Shown: in pieces, positions 31,019-38,634 of the stretch
Position numbering within the stretch: position 1 is the first letter of the stretch
How the letters are laid out: each line of letters opens with the position of its first letter
DNA from: Corallococcus sp. AS-1-6
Lineage (GTDB): Bacteria > Myxococcota > Myxococcia > Myxococcales > Myxococcaceae
Assembly: GCF_020037015.1 (NCBI RefSeq)
Contig: NZ_JAIQDE010000001.1
Coordinates: 62,001 to 126,000, forward strand
Reading direction: 5' to 3'
DNA length: 64,000 bases
Notes under the pieces: generated by a model
Databases searched by the model: none
What the model was told of the DNA's origin: nothing
What the model saw: the letters and a program-made list of their open reading frames with translations, nothing else
Translations under genes and position numbers: made by a program

Positions 31019-31591
31019 CTACAGCTCGATGTCGGTGTCGTGGCCGGGCTTCTTGCGCGCGGGCGGCTCCGGGGGCTCGGTGTCGTCCGGCTCCAGCTCG
31101 TGGGGCACCTCCTCCGGCTCCGGGGGTTCGCCGGGGGCTTCCGGGGACGGCTCGCCCGTGTCGAGCAGGTCGATGCGCTGTCCGTCCTCCACCTGGACGT
31201 AGAGGGTGCGGAAGGTCCACGTCTCGCCGTCCTTGTCGGCCACGGCGTGGAGGCTGCCGTCCGCCTTGGGGCCGTCCAGCGGGACGGTGAACTCCGCGTG
31301 GGTGCGGCCGTTGCGGGTGCTCACCTGGGTGTTGCTGGGGAAGCCCGGCGTGAAGGTGCCGCCCAGGGCCTGCCGCACGTGCGGGTCCTCCTGGGCCTCC
31401 GCGATGGCGTCCGTGTACGCGCCCATGTCCTTGAACGACGAGTAGCCCCAGCCCACGGCGATGGCCGCGAAGCAGAAGCACGAGCCCAGCATCCCCAGGC
31501 AGCCCAGGGGCACCGCCCATTTCCAATTGCGGCTCCACCATCCCTGGCGGGGAACGGGTGCGTACTCGCCCTCGGGCATCGTCGGCGGCAT
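31019..31591 (-). CDS. Coa1-like membrane-anchored protein
   Basis: A 190-residue protein. A short N-terminal tail ([12 protein letters not shown]) is followed by one hydrophobic helix (about 27-50). Next comes a small domain with [26 protein letters not shown] and [19 protein letters not shown], which resembles the cytochrome oxidase assembly factor Coa1 family. The last 45 residues are Pro/Glu-rich and disordered. Coa1-like bacterial proteins have no established role; a link to oxidase assembly is by family name only. It stands alone, divergent from the next gene. Confidence 0.7.
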
Positions 31592-31702
31592 GGGCCCTCC
31601 TGGCCTGGACCTGGGGCCGTGTCATAGCCGGTTCCGGACGAAGCGGGGGTGGGCCTGCACCGGGGGCGGGTTTCGGGGGCGCCTTCATGACAGAGTGGGG
31701 GC

Positions 31703-32680
31703 ATGCCCTCTGGTGGCGTCTCGACGGCCGAGCTCGCGGACCTGCTTGCGGCGCTGCCCTTCGGCCACCGGCTGTGGGTGCGCGGCATGGGGCGGTGTCT
31801 CTACCCGCTCCTGCGCAGCGGGGACGCGGTGCGGCTGCTGCGCTGCGGGCCGGAGCGGCTGGCGCGCGGGGACGTGGCGCTGGTGCGGCACGGGCCCCGG
31901 CTGGCCGCGCAGGTGGTGCTGTCCACGCAGCCCTGGGTGACGGCGTCGCTGTTGGGCGGCACGGACGTGGCGGGCGGGGAACTGGTGGGGCGCATCATCG
32001 CGCTCAAGCGCGGGCGGTGGGTGATGCGGCTGCCCCGGCCCACGCGGCCGGCGCTGTTCCTCCTGCAGCGCACCCTGTCCGGCGTGTGGACGAAGCCCGC
32101 GTCCCGGGCGGTGTTCCGCCACCTGCGCGACCTGCTCTCCGGGTGGACGAAGCCGCTGCGCCGCCAGTTCGTGGGCCCGCTGGAGATCCGCCTGGTGCGC
32201 CCGGAGGACCTGGACGCGCTGCTCGCCTTCGCCACGGAGCGGCTGGTGGTGTCCGGCACCTTCCTGCGCCGGCAGCTCCGCGACCGGTGGGGCCTGCCCG
32301 CGGACAGGCGAGTGGGCGCGGCGGCGGGCGCCTTCGACGCCCAGGGGCACCTGCTCGGCTTCGCGTGGGCGGACGACTACCACCAGGAGGGGCTGTCCCT
32401 GGACGGCTTCTGGGTGCGCTCGCTGGTGGTGTCCCCCAAGGTGCGGCGCATGGGCGTGGCCACCGCGCTGGTGCGGTGCCTGGTGGAGGAGATGCACCGG
32501 CAGGGCGCGGACCGGCTCCACGCGGACATCGACGAGGATAACACCGCCTCCCTGCGGACCTTCTCCGGCCTGGGGTTCCGCCCCGCGCCGGACGCGCTCA
32601 CGGTCGCCACGAACCAGCAGTGGGACGCGGCAGGGGGGAGCAAGCGGCTGGTCGTGCTGGTGCGCCCCCTCTCTCGCTGA
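31703..32680 (+). CDS. S24/S26 peptidase-like domain fused to a GNAT acetyltransferase
   Basis: A 325-residue two-domain protein. Residues about 22-110 match the S24/S26 (LexA/signal peptidase-like) fold: RCLYPLLRSGD (31-41) lines up with the SMxPTLxxGD box and RGDVALVR (55-62) follows. The nucleophile Ser is replaced by Cys32, and the HR/KR catalytic position reads A69-Q70, so classical Ser-Lys/His proteolysis looks lost. Residues about 165-320 form a GNAT domain with the acetyl-CoA loop SLVVSPKVRRMGVATALV. Substrate unknown. It lies divergent from the Coa1-like gene and ahead of an EamA transporter. Confidence 0.75.
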   Translation: MPSGGVSTAELADLLAALPFGHRLWVRGMGRCLYPLLRSGDAVRLLRCGPERLARGDVALVRHGPRLAAQVVLSTQPWVTASLLGGTDVAGGELVGRIIALKRGRWVMRLPRPTRPALFLLQRTLSGVWTKPASRAVFRHLRDLLSGWTKPLRRQFVGPLEIRLVRPEDLDALLAFATERLVVSGTFLRRQLRDRWGLPADRRVGAAAGAFDAQGHLLGFAWADDYHQEGLSLDGFWVRSLVVSPKVRRMGVATALVRCLVEEMHRQGADRLHADIDEDNTASLRTFSGLGFRPAPDALTVATNQQWDAAGGSKRLVVLVRPLSR

Positions 32681-32764
32681 CGGATGGGGGTTGCGCTCCG
32701 CCGGTGGCTGGGCCAAACGGCGGGGCGTCCTGCTCGAGGCCTTGGGCGGGGAAGGGTGGATCCG

Positions 32765-33688
32765 GTGTCCGAAGGGCGTGACGGTGCGCGGTGGAGGGCG
32801 GACGGGGCGCTGGTGCTCCTCACCGTCTTCTGGGGGCTGACGTTCGTGGTGGTGAAGGACGCGCTCGCGTTCGCGGACCCCTTCACCTTCCTCACCCTGC
32901 GCTTCGTGGTGGGCGCGGCGGTGCTGGCCGTCATCGCGCGCCGGCGGATGTTCGCGCCCGGCATCGTCCCCAAGGGGCTGCTCCTGGGCGGGGTGCTGTT
33001 CCTGTGCTTCGCGCTCCAGACGGTGGGGCTGATGGATACGACGCCGTCGCGCGCGGCGTTCCTCACCGGCCTCAACGTCCTCTTCGTCCCGCTGCTGTCC
33101 ATGGTGCTGCTCAAGCGCCTGCCCCGGTGGGGCACCAGCGTGGGCGTGGTGCTGGCGGCGGTGGGGCTGTACTGGCTGACGCGGCCCACGCCGGACGACA
33201 CGCTGCCCGGGGGCATGGGCGGCTTCCGCCTGGGGGACTGGCTGTCCATCGGGTGCGCGGTGGCGTACGCGGGGCACATCCTGCTCACGGAGCGCTTCGC
33301 GTCGAAGGACAACGCGGTGGGCCTGGTGGCGGTGCAGTTGGTCGGCGTGGCGGTGCTGTCCGCGCTGTGCCTGCCCTTCGTGGAGCGCCGGCTGGAGTGG
33401 AGCCAGCCGCTGGTGGTGGCGGTGCTCGCGTGCGGCGTGCTCGCGAGCGCGGTGGCCATCCTGGTGCAGACGTGGGGCCAGGCGCGCACCAGCGCCGTGC
33501 GCGCGGCGCTCATCTTCGCGCTGGAGCCGGTGTTCGCCTCGGCCTACTCCGTGGCGGTGGGCCGCGAGGTGCTGGGCCCGAAGGAGTGGCTGGGCGGCGC
33601 GCTCATCGTCGTGGGCGTCTTCGCGTCGGAGCTGGGCACGGTGGTGTGGGACGGATGGCGGGCACGGGGCCGCACGCCCGCAGCCTGA
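32765..33688 (+). CDS. EamA/DMT-family transporter
   Basis: A 10-TM transporter of about 307 residues with two EamA repeats: LTVFWGLTFVVVKDAL at the first helix, RAAFLTGLNVLFVPLLSMVLL in repeat one, and RAALIFALEPVFASAYSVAVG in repeat two. The GTG at 32765 follows GGGGAAGGGTGGA and removes an unlikely basic extension; an ATG at 32684, 4 nt after the previous stop, is the alternative. It is a distant paralogue of the transporter at 12.2-13.1 kb. Substrate unknown. Confidence 0.87.
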   Translation: MSEGRDGARWRADGALVLLTVFWGLTFVVVKDALAFADPFTFLTLRFVVGAAVLAVIARRRMFAPGIVPKGLLLGGVLFLCFALQTVGLMDTTPSRAAFLTGLNVLFVPLLSMVLLKRLPRWGTSVGVVLAAVGLYWLTRPTPDDTLPGGMGGFRLGDWLSIGCAVAYAGHILLTERFASKDNAVGLVAVQLVGVAVLSALCLPFVERRLEWSQPLVVAVLACGVLASAVAILVQTWGQARTSAVRAALIFALEPVFASAYSVAVGREVLGPKEWLGGALIVVGVFASELGTVVWDGWRARGRTPAA

Positions 33689-33753: not shown

Positions 33754-34728
33754 ATGAGCGTGGAGCTGAGACGCAACGGCCTGCACCTGTCGGGCACGCC
33801 CCTGTCGCTGGACGCGAAGCGCAAGTCGCCGCTGTCCTTCGTCAGCCACGGACACTCGGACCACATCGCCCGCCACGAGAGCACCATCGCCACGGCCGCC
33901 ACGCTGCGCTTCATGGCCCACCGGCTGGGGCCGGTGGCGGCGCCGCTGTCCGTGCCGTTCCGCCGCCCGTTCGAGCTGGGCCCGCTGCTGCTGGAGCTGC
34001 TGCCCGCGGGCCACATCCTGGGCAGCGCGCAACTGCGCGTCACGCGCGCGGATGGCAGGCGCATCGTCTACACGGGGGACCTGAACACCGCGCCGTCGCT
34101 CACCGCCGAGGCCACGGAGGTGGCCACCTGCGACACGCTGGTCATCGAGTCCACCTTCGGGCACCCGCGCTACCGCTTCCCGCCGCGCCCGGAGGTGCTG
34201 GGGCAGGTGGAGACGTGGCTCCACGCGCAGTTGAGCCGGGGCGCGACGCCGGTGCTCCTGGGCTACCCCCTGGGCAAGAGCCAGGAGGCGATGAAGCAAC
34301 TGGCCCTGCGCGGCTTCAAGCTGGTGGCGCACCCGTCCATCTTCGAGGTGGCGGAGCTGTACGCGGAGCTGGGCGTCCCCATCGAGAACCTGCGCCGCTA
34401 CGACGGCCGCGTGGAGCCGGGCGAGGTCCTCTTCTTCCCGCCGCACCTGGCGCGGGGCGGGGCCCTGGCGCCGCACTGGCCCCGGGCCACGGCGGTGCTC
34501 ACCGGCTGGGCCATGGACCCGGGCGGCGCGCGGCGCTACGGCGCGGACGTGGCCTTCCCGCTGTCCGACCACGCGGACTTCCCGTCGCTGCTGCGCTACG
34601 TGAAGGACACCGGCGCGCGGGACGTCATCACCTGCCACGGCTTCGCGGAGGAGCTGGCCCAGGCGCTGCGCGACGCGGGCACGGACGCCCGCCCGCTGGG
34701 CAAGCCACAGCAGATGACCCTGTTTTGA
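33754..34728 (+). CDS. MBL-fold metallo-hydrolase, RNA/DNA exonuclease-like
   Basis: A 324-residue metallo-beta-lactamase fold protein. The zinc motif is SHGHSDH; further ligands lie in LPAGHILGSAQL, YTGDLNTAPS and the C-terminal SDHADFPSLL, and VITCHGF closes the fold. This layout is that of the beta-CASP-like group that includes the DNA ligase-associated exonucleases (TIGR04122 type). No ligase or Lhr helicase gene is adjacent here, so the specific role is open. The ATG at 33754 fits the conserved VELRRNGLHLSG start. Confidence 0.8.
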   Translation: MSVELRRNGLHLSGTPLSLDAKRKSPLSFVSHGHSDHIARHESTIATAATLRFMAHRLGPVAAPLSVPFRRPFELGPLLLELLPAGHILGSAQLRVTRADGRRIVYTGDLNTAPSLTAEATEVATCDTLVIESTFGHPRYRFPPRPEVLGQVETWLHAQLSRGATPVLLGYPLGKSQEAMKQLALRGFKLVAHPSIFEVAELYAELGVPIENLRRYDGRVEPGEVLFFPPHLARGGALAPHWPRATAVLTGWAMDPGGARRYGADVAFPLSDHADFPSLLRYVKDTGARDVITCHGFAEELAQALRDAGTDARPLGKPQQMTLF

Positions 34729-35394: not shown

Positions 35395-36915
35395 TCAGTG
35401 CAGGGACACGAAGATGCGCAGTTGCCAGGTGTCCTTCGTCACGTCCGGGTAGGACTCGAAGCGGCTGTGGCGCCGGAAGAAGTTGAGCTGCGAGCCCATC
35501 CCCAGGTTCCGGTACACGGGGAGGTCCACCTGGAGCTGGGCCTGGTGCACCCGGTGCGCGCCGCCCGAGCCGTCCACCACCACCACGTGTTCGGCGCCCG
35601 CCTCCAGCGTGACGACCTCCCAGTCCTCGCGCAGGTACGCCATCTGGAGCTGGAAGCCCAGGCCGGGGCCGTAGTCGTAGTCCCGGCCCTCGTTGCCCTC
35701 GCTGTCGGTGTGCTCGGAGGTGACGCCGGTGAGGAGGCTGCCGTCCACGAGCAGCGCGGTCCTCAGCCGGGAGCGGTTGGGGAACCTGTGCTCGTGCAGC
35801 AGGCCCGCGTTCAGGGACTGGCCGCCCACCTCGTACGCGAGCGTGTCCGTGTAGTCGAGTTGCTGGAGCAGCCCCAGGCGCAGCTCGTCGCGCTCGGCGC
35901 TCCAGAGCGTGGACTTCACGAGCAGGCCCTGCAGCCTCGCGTGGCTGACGAGGCTGCTCTCCCGCGAGGTGAGCTGCACGCGCGCGTTGAAGGCGTCGAA
36001 GGGCCGGTGGTGCGCGCCCCGGTACATGTCGCCGTAGCGCAGGGTGCCCTGGATGAAGAACTGATCCTCGCCCCAGGCCAGGGACCTGCCGTCCCCCAGC
36101 TTGAGGTAGCCCAGCGAGGCCCAGCCCGCGATGTCCTCCGGCCACCACTCCGTCGGCGACGGACCGTGGTGGGAAACGTCGCCGCGCGCCACGCGGTTGA
36201 TGCCGCGCATGGGGCTGAGGACGCCGGCGGTCAGCTCGCGCACGAAGCGCTGGCGGCCCCGGGCCTCCGTGTCCAGCACCAGCGAGGACAGGCGGTAGAG
36301 GGCCTCGCCCATGGCCACGCCGCCCACGGTCGTGTTGATGAGGTCATTGGCGGAGGGCGGCTCGTTCTCCGCGAACAGCTCCCACTGGAGGCTGCCCAGG
36401 AAGGTGAGCGGCACCGCGGCCTGGAACGGCAGGCCGTTGTCGCGCGCGGCCGTGTAGTAGAGGCCGCCGTGATACGGGTGGGCGAACTGGTTGGTGGAGA
36501 AGCCGTCCTGGTCCCAGACGAAGCCGGTGCGGAAGTTCTCCTTCCACACGGACGTGGAGATGTACGCCCAGTCCTTGTTCGCGATGTAGCGGTCATACGT
36601 CCAGACGACCACGTTGATGGCCGTCACCTCCCCCAGCGCAATCCACGGGTGGGGCCCGGGGTTGTCCCGGAGCTCGTCCTCCCTCACGGGCGCATCCGCC
36701 GGCAATGCGGCGTACGCCTCGGCCACGGGAGGGCAGGGCTCCCACCGGGTCTCCTGGCCGGGCGAAAGCCGCGCCGCGCAGAGGGCCATGACGCTGGACG
36801 GAACGGAGCGCGCCATGTCCTGTGGCGAACCATCCGCGACCGCGACGCAGGCGCGCAGGGCGCACGCCAGCGCCACGCCTCGCGGCAGCCATGGCCCCCA
36901 CCCACCGTGCCCCAT
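35395..36915 (-). CDS. DUF3943 outer-membrane-type protein, copy A
   Basis: A 506-residue exported protein with the DUF3943 core: DNGLPFQAAVPLTF, then LQWELFAENEPPSANDLINT and GGVAMGEALYRLSSLVLD. The C-terminal half is a run of amphipathic strands ending RIFVSLH, as in a membrane barrel. The start at 36915 (M-G-H-G) matches the start of the neighbouring paralogue; an ATG at 36948 adds 11 residues. Function unknown. It is arranged head-to-tail with copy B, and the two are clearly a tandem duplication. Confidence 0.8.
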   Translation of the reverse strand: MGHGGWGPWLPRGVALACALRACVAVADGSPQDMARSVPSSVMALCAARLSPGQETRWEPCPPVAEAYAALPADAPVREDELRDNPGPHPWIALGEVTAINVVVWTYDRYIANKDWAYISTSVWKENFRTGFVWDQDGFSTNQFAHPYHGGLYYTAARDNGLPFQAAVPLTFLGSLQWELFAENEPPSANDLINTTVGGVAMGEALYRLSSLVLDTEARGRQRFVRELTAGVLSPMRGINRVARGDVSHHGPSPTEWWPEDIAGWASLGYLKLGDGRSLAWGEDQFFIQGTLRYGDMYRGAHHRPFDAFNARVQLTSRESSLVSHARLQGLLVKSTLWSAERDELRLGLLQQLDYTDTLAYEVGGQSLNAGLLHEHRFPNRSRLRTALLVDGSLLTGVTSEHTDSEGNEGRDYDYGPGLGFQLQMAYLREDWEVVTLEAGAEHVVVVDGSGGAHRVHQAQLQVDLPVYRNLGMGSQLNFFRRHSRFESYPDVTKDTWQLRIFVSLH

Positions 36916-37018
36916 CCGGTCCGCCCGCGCCTCCGCGCACGGCTGCATGCCGCGCTCGCGGAAGGTAAGCAGTCAGGTGTTGGAAAGCGCCCCCGGAGCT
37001 CATCCTTTCGGGCGACTT

Positions 37019-38503
37019 CTAGTAGTGCACGGAGAAGAAGACGCGCAGTTGGTACGCGTCCTTCTCCACGTCCGGGTAGGACTCGAAGCGGCTGTGGCGG
37101 TGGAACCAGTTCAGCTCCGTGCCCAGCCCCAGGCGCTTGTACACGGGGATGTCCGCCTGGAGCTGGCCGGTGAAGACCTGGTGCGAGCCGCCGGAGCCGT
37201 CCACCACCACGATGTGGGAGGTGCCCGCCTCCAGCGTGAGGACCTCCCAGGCGCCGCGCATGTACGCGACCTGGAGGTTCAGGCCCAGGCCGGGACCGTA
37301 GTCGTAGTTGCGGCCCGCGACGCCGCTGTGCTCGGAGGAGATGCCGGTGAGGAGGCTCCCGTCCACCAGCAGCGCGGTCCGCAGCTTCGAGCGCGCGCCG
37401 AGCTGGCGCTCATGCAGCAGGCCCGCCTCCACGGACTGGCCGCCCAGTTCGTACGCCTCCGTGTCCACGATGCTGAGCTGCTGGAGCAGGCCGAAGCGCA
37501 GCTCGTCCTTCTCCGTGCTCCAGAGGGACGCCTTCAGCAGCAGCCCCTGGATGCGCGCATGGCTGATGAAGCTGCTCTCCTTCGAGGTGAACTGGACGCG
37601 CGCGTCGAAGGCGTCGAAGGGGCGGCGGATGTCGCCCTGGTACATGTCGCCGTAGCGCATGGCCGCGTGGAGGAAGAACTGGTCCTCGCCCCAGGCCAGG
37701 GGCCGGCCGTCACCCAGCTTGAGGTAGCCCAGGTTGCCCCAGATGGACAGGTCGCTGGGGCGCCAGTCCGGGGGCGTGGGCTCGTGGCGCGTCACGTCGC
37801 CGCGCACCACGCGGTTGAAGCCGCGCACGGGGCTCATCGCGGCGGCGGTGAGCTCGCGCACGAAGCGCTCGCCGCCCCGGGCCTCCGTGTCCAGCGCCAA
37901 CGAGGACAGCCGGTAGAGCCCCTCGCCAATGGCCATACCGCCCACGGACGTGTTGATGAGGTCGTTGGCGGACGGCAGCTCGTTCTCCGCGAACAGCTCC
38001 CACTGCGCGCTGCCAAACAGCGTGAAGGCCAGGGCGGCCGCGTAGGGCACGCCGTTGTCGCGCGCGGCCGTGTAGTAGAGGCTGCCGTGGTACGGGTGCG
38101 CGAACTGGTTGGTGAGGAAGCCGTCCGCGTCCCAGACGAAGCCCGTGCGCAGGTTCTTCGCCCACGTGGACGGGCTCACCTTCGCCCAGTCCTTGTTCGC
38201 GAGGACCCGGTCCCACGTCCAGACGAACAGGTTGATGGCCGTCACTTCCCCCACCGCGAGCCACGGGTGGGCCTTCTCCCGGCGCGCGTCCTCGCGGACG
38301 GTCTGCTCGTTCAGCGGGGCATCCGCTGGCGGCGACCGCGGCCCGGCCCGCGCGGGGGCCTCCGGCGCGGGAGCGTCCTCGCACGGCGCCTCCTGGGCGA
38401 AGGCGGGCGCGCCCACCAGCAGCGCGCAGGCCAGCCGCACGCCCCCTGGAGGCCACGGACTTCCGCCTCCGCCGTGCCCCCGTGCGTGCCTGCCTCGCCC
38501 CAT
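37019..38503 (-). CDS. DUF3943 outer-membrane-type protein, copy B
   Basis: A 494-residue paralogue of copy A with the same segment order: signal peptide ending APAFAQ, an Ala/Pro linker, EVTAINLFVWTWDRVLANKDW, FAHPYHGSLYYTAARDNG, ELFAENELPSANDLINTSVG, RPLAWGEDQFFLHAAMRYG, and a barrel-like C-terminus ending LRVFFSVHY. The ATG at 38503 gives a usable signal peptide; the longer frame runs into the intergenic region. The two copies are 103 bp apart and probably share a promoter upstream of copy B. Confidence 0.8.
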   Translation of the reverse strand: MGRGRHARGHGGGGSPWPPGGVRLACALLVGAPAFAQEAPCEDAPAPEAPARAGPRSPPADAPLNEQTVREDARREKAHPWLAVGEVTAINLFVWTWDRVLANKDWAKVSPSTWAKNLRTGFVWDADGFLTNQFAHPYHGSLYYTAARDNGVPYAAALAFTLFGSAQWELFAENELPSANDLINTSVGGMAIGEGLYRLSSLALDTEARGGERFVRELTAAAMSPVRGFNRVVRGDVTRHEPTPPDWRPSDLSIWGNLGYLKLGDGRPLAWGEDQFFLHAAMRYGDMYQGDIRRPFDAFDARVQFTSKESSFISHARIQGLLLKASLWSTEKDELRFGLLQQLSIVDTEAYELGGQSVEAGLLHERQLGARSKLRTALLVDGSLLTGISSEHSGVAGRNYDYGPGLGLNLQVAYMRGAWEVLTLEAGTSHIVVVDGSGGSHQVFTGQLQADIPVYKRLGLGTELNWFHRHSRFESYPDVEKDAYQLRVFFSVHY

Positions 38504-38634
38504 ATCCCGTCCGCCGCACCCTCGCTCGCGGTGCCACGCCGCGCGTCTTGAAGGTAGGCGGCGGGGCGCCGGATGAAATCCTCCTCCTGGAAGGAGGGAG
38601 AAACGGCTTCCAGCGCACAGGCGGCGGGGGACAT

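Follow-up and report, generated by a model that had tools for sequence, protein, structure and literature searches.

S24/S26-like domain and GNAT acetyltransferase joined in one Corallococcus protein: a probable former leader peptidase, now probably inactive, without its partner genes

Gene structure in and around the fusion gene

The window analyzed here is a stretch of 64,000 nucleotides from the genome of Corallococcus sp. AS-1-6. On its forward strand, at positions 31703–32680, lies a gene for a protein of 325 aa which, judged from its sequence, joins an S24/S26 (SpI)-like domain to a GNAT acetyltransferase domain. The gene was matched in all 16 Corallococcus genomes, once only partially: in genome G009 the match is limited to residues 1–124, near a contig end, and an apparent frameshift follows. 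Residues 20–110 (31760–32032) make up the predicted S24/S26-like beta domain, which was delimited by profile comparison and by the beta strands of a structure model. Within it, codon reading and alignment place Cys32 (codon TGT, 31796–31798) at the position of the Ser nucleophile and Gln70 (codon CAG, 31910–31912) at that of the catalytic His, and the aligned Asp88 (31964–31966), a candidate for the third triad residue, is present. A helical linker of residues 111–157 (32033–32173; model helices at 112–129, 132–148 and 150–157) leads to the GNAT domain of residues 158–325 (32174–32677). The translation of this domain contains the acetyl-CoA loop RRMGVA (residues 248–253; 32444–32461), which we take to be GNAT motif A (R/Q-x-x-G-x-G/A).

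The gene on the left, on the reverse strand, encodes a Coa1-like protein (31019–31591; PF08695, E 1e-10). Between the two genes lies an intergenic junction (31592–31702), at which, according to synteny, genes for a PqqD protein, a giant lipoprotein, a short peptide and an HprK-like protein are found in related genera. The Coa1-like gene thus forms the left border of what is referred to as the cassette site hereafter. On the right, both on the forward strand, are genes for an EamA-type transporter (32684–33688; PF00892, E 7.6e-34), which keeps this place in loci with and without the cassette, and for a metallo-beta-lactamase (MBL)-fold protein with an approximate start (33889–34728; PF07521 and PF12706, E 0.004, below the cut-off), which was also identified by synteny. 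Farther on, at 35395–38551, two adjacent reverse-strand ORF regions have similar antisense translations, suggesting a tandem duplication.

In the Pfam scan of the whole protein, the GNAT half alone was recognized (PF00583, 46.4 bits against a cut-off of 20.7, E 5.7e-12, residues 212–292); together with the acetyl-CoA loop, this assigns it to the GNATs, and it is apparently competent. All of the 50 structures listed in the fold search were GNATs (Z 15.4–17.2). Among these matches, the N-alpha-acetyltransferases RimI and NatA occur beside ArsN/PAT-type and other small-molecule GNATs, and so the fold points to no substrate class. As the whole model was used, the fold searches reflect the GNAT half alone, and the absence of S24/S26 structures from them carries no meaning.

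A second, unlinked paralogue of the fusion occurs in Citreicoccus (L051, 7914–8909; L052) and carries Pro, Tyr and Gly at positions 32, 70 and 88. In L051, it is located between genes for a flippase-like protein and an acyltransferase-3, with 4-bp overlaps, in a run that includes a glycosyltransferase gene. These surroundings hint that the substrate of that copy may be a sugar. They also favor the idea that the GNAT of the window protein acts on a sugar or another small molecule and is merely stabilized by its N-domain; however, the four window neighbors scanned are not glycan genes, and we regard this idea as rather unlikely.

Relationship of the N-terminal half to the S24/S26 peptidases

The sequence-only reading had aligned the stretch RCLYPLLRSGD with the S24/S26 box. 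This alignment held: Cys32 corresponds to the Ser, and Pro35 and Gly40-Asp41 also align. By itself, the window sequence is a poor witness to the relationship. Pfam gave no S24/S26 match for the whole protein at E ≤ 1, nor any, PF00717 included, for its N-terminal part at E ≤ 10, and the comparison of the window sequence with the profile of an S24/S26 paralogue, which forms a second gene family in the same genomes, reached a probability of only 9.6% (E 0.0033). The profile of the family (22 sequences), however, matched that of the paralogue (13 sequences) with a probability of 97.6% and an E of 3.9e-12, and position 70 of the family fell opposite His60 of the paralogue. The N-terminal half is thus a homologue within the S24/S26 superfamily, and this is established through the family profile rather than through the window sequence alone.

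Matches of the family members to PF00717 are weak and patchy. In one scan, six of 10 proteins matched (best E 2e-4) and the other four did not; in a second, four of nine matched, one of them (L059) just above the cut-off (23.5 vs 23.3 bits), and the other five did not. The Corallococcus member of the paralogue scored 33.7 bits, above the cut-off, and the paralogue profile matched chains of SEC11A, LexA, SipA and LepA in the PDB (best E 1.6e-4). The profile of the N-domain alignment found only ferredoxin-NADP reductases there (E 0.34–0.36). A weak TIGR02228 match (E 0.004) was seen in the relative L047. The first structure model had a pLDDT of 75.3; the second, based on an alignment of 53 sequences from up to 65 rows (the window and 64 non-redundant rows), had a mean pLDDT of 85.5 and a pTM of 0.61. 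The N-domain is modelled as beta-rich, and residues 131–150 have the lowest pLDDT after the N-terminus (63–66).

Signal peptidase I and S24 (LexA) belong to the MEROPS clan SF. The family resembles the archaeal/ER-type signal peptidase I (TIGR02228, SipW, SEC11) and S24 (LexA) in its SxxPxLxxGD box followed by a His. Unlike these, the window protein has its nucleophile and base replaced, is fused to a GNAT, and has no membrane segment that is obvious by inspection.

The partner cassette in related genera

In most of the cassette loci, the order is coa1/PqqD–giant lipoprotein–peptide–HprK-like–fusion gene–EamA–MBL. The coa1 gene is about 8 kb away from the fusion gene there, and is directly beside it in those Corallococcus and Myxococcus/Pyxidicoccus loci whose sequence spans the site. 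In L048–L050, the HprK-like gene shares 4 bp with the peptidase gene. The giant proteins have 1,734–2,314 aa in the loci examined, and that of L035 carries Ig-like and FG-GAP repeats; where the called start lies far enough upstream, inspection shows an N-terminal motif that we take to be a lipobox. The HprK-like proteins matched TIGR04352 in three cases (E 6.6e-10 to 2.5e-8), far below its cut-off, and their best score was 38.6 against the HprK_rel_A cut-off of 200. The PqqD protein of L035 matched PF05402 (E 1.1e-13). PqqD-like proteins serve as RiPP recognition elements (RREs; PMC7470986, PMC5067487), and a discrete RRE of this type is present in the cassette relatives. A PADLOC scan of five proteins, run for a possible defense system, returned nothing for the fusion protein and only weak mad3/mad8 matches for the kinase, and this possibility was discarded.

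Of the 86 genomes that represent the family, 39 have the PqqD of the cassette type, and none of these is among the 16 Corallococcus or the 17 Myxococcus-group genomes. Two PqqD-positive genomes, G018 and G056 (85–86% complete), gave no peptidase match. Fourteen genomes from four genera carry an unfused peptidase (135–150 aa, one start being unclear) on a contig different from that of PqqD; no HprK-like match was seen in two of them, G046 and G060. The record BNCN01000001 (L100), titled Comamonas sp. KCTC 72670, corresponds to G055 of the Myxococcus/Pyxidicoccus group and is probably mislabelled.

Catalytic residues among the relatives

The search of 144 relatives gave matches at E ≤ 0.001 in 96 of them, often through the GNAT part alone, and 70 rows cover the N-domain (the window and L064, which has no clear start, are counted). 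Positions 32 and 70 are Ser/His in 42 of these rows, Cys/Gln in 12, Asp/Gln in five, Ser/Gln in four, Gly/Gln, Gly/His and Pro/Tyr in two each, and Gly/Arg in one. Each of the 36 rows that come from PqqD-positive genomes of Myxococcaceae has Ser32, His70 and Asp88 intact, and G034, a PqqD-positive genome outside these 36, also shows them in the alignment. Among the PqqD-negative genomes, Ser and His are kept in only six of 33 (Fisher p 1e-13, the kinship of the rows being ignored). Those six, all of the Myxococcus group, have the complete triad without the cassette, and so erosion does not always follow the loss of the cassette.

In Corallococcus (G009 added), Gln70 is found in 16 of 16 genomes, and residue 32 is Cys in 11 (codon TGT) and Ser in five (AGT/AGC in four, the fifth, of G009, being taken from the protein). 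In the Myxococcus group, residue 32 is Cys, Gly, Asp or Ser. Asp88 is kept in 11 of the 15 rows from Corallococcus and in 12 of the 17 from the Myxococcus group; it is replaced by Pro or His in five of the 16 Corallococcus genomes. A change of codon 32 from AGC/AGT to TGT/TGC or GGC requires a single step or nearly so, that to GAC two steps, and the change of codon 70 from CAC to CAG one step. In a tree of 47 fusion rows, from which L011 (at a contig end) and L044 (truncated) were left out, as also from the dN/dS analysis, four changes of the dyad state suffice, and Cys32 occurs in Corallococcus and, separately, in L019. A single loss of the cassette before the split of Corallococcus and Myxococcus was not rejected (p-AU 0.083), and the cassette-bearing Citreicoccus groups with Myxococcus (support 87/82).

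With Cys32 and Gln70, the window protein lacks both the Ser and the His/Lys base of an active peptidase, and its peptidase half, a former leader peptidase in the favored reading, is probably inactive. The earlier reading had seen Ala-Gln where His-Arg or Lys-Arg was expected. Gln70 does stand opposite the catalytic His, but the missing Arg is uninformative, since the position after residue 70 is Val, Leu, Met or Ile in 70 of 70 rows.

That reading had also considered a Cys-dependent enzyme and proposed to check whether Cys32 is invariant. It is not, and the general base is missing; the idea of such an enzyme is not supported. A new cysteine hydrolase or an acyl carrier created by Cys32 would agree with the occurrence of this residue in 11 of the 16 Corallococcus genomes and with a distant SpI-like protein (G024, L160) that has a Cys together with an intact His-Arg; nevertheless, five Corallococcus genomes have Ser32, none of the 16 has His70, and L012 and L013, sister rows, carry Cys and Ser respectively, which makes this explanation highly improbable. 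Because Cys32 occurs separately on the tree, it looks like one outcome at a freed position rather than a new nucleophile. In L160 (G024:C692, 208–1490), an HprK-like gene overlaps the S24/S26-like gene by 4 bp, and this S24/S26-like protein is possibly a true Cys variant.

It had further been foreseen that orthologues with an intact dyad would indicate simple decay in this strain. Such orthologues exist, as described above, but decay confined to a single strain is rejected, because the loss is genus-wide and recurrent and tracks the absence of the partner cassette. The halves, as read from the proteins, fail in different lineages: L048, L055, L056 and L059 retain Ser-His and have no GNAT by Pfam, and in L053 the GNAT is absent and the protein has 145 aa.

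Precursor-like peptides and likeness to known systems

The suggested search of other genomes for precursor peptides linked to the gene had a positive outcome: the relatives with the intact triad have beside them a short ORF whose leader is conserved and whose Cys-containing tail varies. In all of the 10 loci first checked, an ORF of 45–51 aa, with starts chosen by hand, lies between the giant and HprK-like genes; the consensus of its N-terminal part is KKPYRPPxVRSEKILVPDLF. A motif derived from these 10 loci was scanned in 160 loci and the window, and the peptide was found in loci of 17 genomes, many loci being too short to cover the site. A profile search found it in 18 of 144 genomes, none of them Corallococcus (0 of 16) or of the Myxococcus group, and the motif scan found none in the window. 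Inspection of 13 further loci by eye revealed a [Y/W]xxP peptide with at least two Cys in 10; it was absent from L044, L159 and L118, and L044 gave a weak profile match at the peptide site (E 5.5e-4). No NCBIfam model matched the eight putative precursors scanned.

These genes recall the linear polyphosphorylated peptide (LPP) clusters, LppA/K/B/S/D/N, of Bacillota (Popov et al. 2026, PMC13381572). According to that paper, their components are an SpI-like peptidase (LppS), an RRE (LppB), an HprK-like kinase, an NTP transferase and an MsbA-like transporter; the leader of the precursor is YxxPxVLxHQxIxFETxxS; and cleavage of the leader by LppS requires LppB and is abolished by S29A, H68A or D93A. 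In the same paper, LPPs are called restricted to Bacillota, SpI cluster 1 is "predominantly" from Bacillota, and SpI-like peptidases are said to be previously undescribed in RiPP pathways. The cassette relatives are like the LPP clusters, as described there, in having an SpI-like Ser-His-Asp peptidase (36 of 36 rows, Asp88 being presumably equivalent to D93 of LppS, matched by order and not by alignment) and a discrete PqqD-type RRE. Less certain counterparts are the HprK-like protein, a putative kinase with its low-scoring matches, and the precursor-like peptide, whose leader has a YxxPxV-like part and otherwise differs. They are unlike the LPP clusters in their occurrence in Myxococcota, the giant Ig/FG-GAP lipoprotein, the frequent GNAT fusion and the Cys-containing tails; their leader is without the HQxIxFET part, and no NTP transferase or MsbA-type transporter was found among the cassette genes given to Pfam/NCBIfam. 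The window copy differs further from the LPP type described there, having lost all partners and catalytic residues: no RRE, HprK-like kinase or precursor gene adjoins the peptidase gene, and the window locus is not an LPP-type cluster. The cassette also resembles the paeninodin-like lasso clusters (RRE B1, HprK-type kinase) in its [Y/W]xxP leader, RRE and putative kinase, but neither a cyclase nor a B2 cysteine peptidase was found among the genes scanned, and an S24/S26-type peptidase is present instead.

Judged from the parts of the cassette and their order, the intact relatives, many of them with a GNAT, are most likely leader peptidases. Acetylation of a peptide by the fusion would be plausible. 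A more ambitious proposal is an unreported LPP-like RiPP family of Myxococcota, in which the SpI-like peptidase, often fused to a GNAT, would remove the leader and the same enzyme would then acetylate the freed N-terminus of a Cys peptide; in Corallococcus and much of Myxococcus, the peptide system would have been lost and the peptidase would have become a pseudo-enzyme serving the GNAT as a substrate- or partner-binding domain. Taken as a whole, this is tentative and, in our judgment, rather unlikely. Among the matches listed in searches of open-access text, none described the cassette.

The second cassette of this genome

The genome of the window carries another cassette (L113; G000:C5:72456–77784), with genes for an intact S24/S26 protein, a PqqD protein, a small putative lipoprotein, an HprK-like protein, an exported protein of 1,008 aa and a short peptide that contains YVPPAI and two Cys. 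The peptide reads YVPPAILWEQPFVALAQ followed by the terminal CTIPGESECMP, and related peptides occur in L122 and L157. A search for S24/S26 proteins of this type matched 40 of 88 genomes; all 25 loci examined, those of the 16 Corallococcus genomes among them, keep the Ser, the His and the Arg. This paralogue, still next to genes for PqqD, HprK-like and exported proteins, serves as a control from within the window's genome.

This raises the question of whether the inactive domain presents a peptide, such as the product of the second cassette, to the GNAT for N-acetylation. The occurrence of this S24/S26 type in all 16 Corallococcus genomes and in the two genomes of the Myxococcus group that the search included, the peptide-like ORFs of L113 and L122, and the resemblance of the GNAT to RimI and NatA, besides small-molecule GNATs, would fit. 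However, the leaders of the two cassettes differ, the loci have no genetic link, and the fold of the GNAT does not indicate a substrate; we consider presentation of this kind quite improbable.

In the same genome, a PqqD gene and an MNIO gene (PF05114, E 2e-76) occur near repeated short peptides, at least two in number, of the type MYIQSxIVRVSA..DKCTCSNGM (L114; G000:C8:106000–124000). This region looks like a separate RiPP cluster.

Selective constraint on the two halves

In the 14 Corallococcus sequences compared, only one of the codons 21–74, that of residue 32, varies in amino acid; 22 vary synonymously only and 31 are identical. The corresponding numbers for the GNAT codons 158–320 are 40, 58 and 65 (Fisher p 0.0005). 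By rough pairwise counting, dN/dS in Corallococcus is 0.031 for residues 20–74 and 0.232 for the GNAT, and synonymous change is also lower in the former (dS 0.19 vs 0.26). For residues 20–74, dN/dS is 0.169 in eight cassette-bearing relatives and 0.039 in the cassette-bearing Citreicoccus pair. In the Myxococcus group, it is 0.112 for six rows with the intact triad and 0.351 for 11 without the intact dyad. Strong constraint on this segment is thus not unique to the dead copies, as seen from the Citreicoccus pair.

These values bear on the possibility that the peptidase half, left over from the loss of the cassette, is carried along neutrally by a GNAT that is still useful and will itself disappear in time. 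The recurrent and varied changes at positions 32, 70 and 88 and the value of 0.351 are what such decay would produce; in Corallococcus, however, the value of 0.031 lies below those of the GNAT and of the eight cassette-bearing relatives, although it is similar to that of the Citreicoccus pair. We consider vestigial decay unlikely. Since residues 21–74 are the most constrained of the regions compared in Corallococcus, the probably dead half is likely to have kept a role, in binding or as a scaffold. The earlier suggestion that the peptidase half is no longer a peptidase and has been kept as a module is supported by this constraint together with the genus-wide Gln70.

Interpretation

The explanation that we favor as a whole, with a probability of roughly 0.6, is that the window protein is a former LppS-like leader peptidase that has lost its partners, is catalytically dead and has been kept on a GNAT. 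The ancestor of the N-terminal half would have been an SpI-like leader peptidase that acted on a short precursor together with a PqqD-type RRE and an HprK-like kinase, as LppS does, and the GNAT would have joined the peptidase in some ancestor. The genes for PqqD, the giant lipoprotein, the precursor and the kinase are absent from the locus in Corallococcus and the Myxococcus/Pyxidicoccus group, presumably through loss; in Corallococcus the His has changed, as has the Ser in many genomes and the Asp in some. The resulting protein would be a GNAT carrying a dead leader-peptidase fold, whose most likely role is to bind a peptide or a partner or to stabilize the shape of the GNAT. The sequences themselves show the homology, the changes in the triad, the co-occurrence, the synteny, the precursor-like ORFs and the purifying selection; cleavage of leaders by relatives with the full triad, the succession of events, the inactivity of the window copy, the activity of the GNAT and the binding role are inferred from them.

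The wider cassette, which lies outside the window, is more interesting than the window copy. The relatives suggest that the arrangement of an RRE, an HprK-like protein, an SpI-like peptidase and a [Y/W]xxP peptide also exists in Myxococcaceae, beyond Bacillota. Within this family, the proteins form a series from intact to apparently dead leader peptidases, with an intact-looking paralogue in the genome of the window and with precursor-like ORFs suited to expression, and the GNAT fusion would allow a direct and cheap check on whether such peptides are acetylated at the N-terminus.
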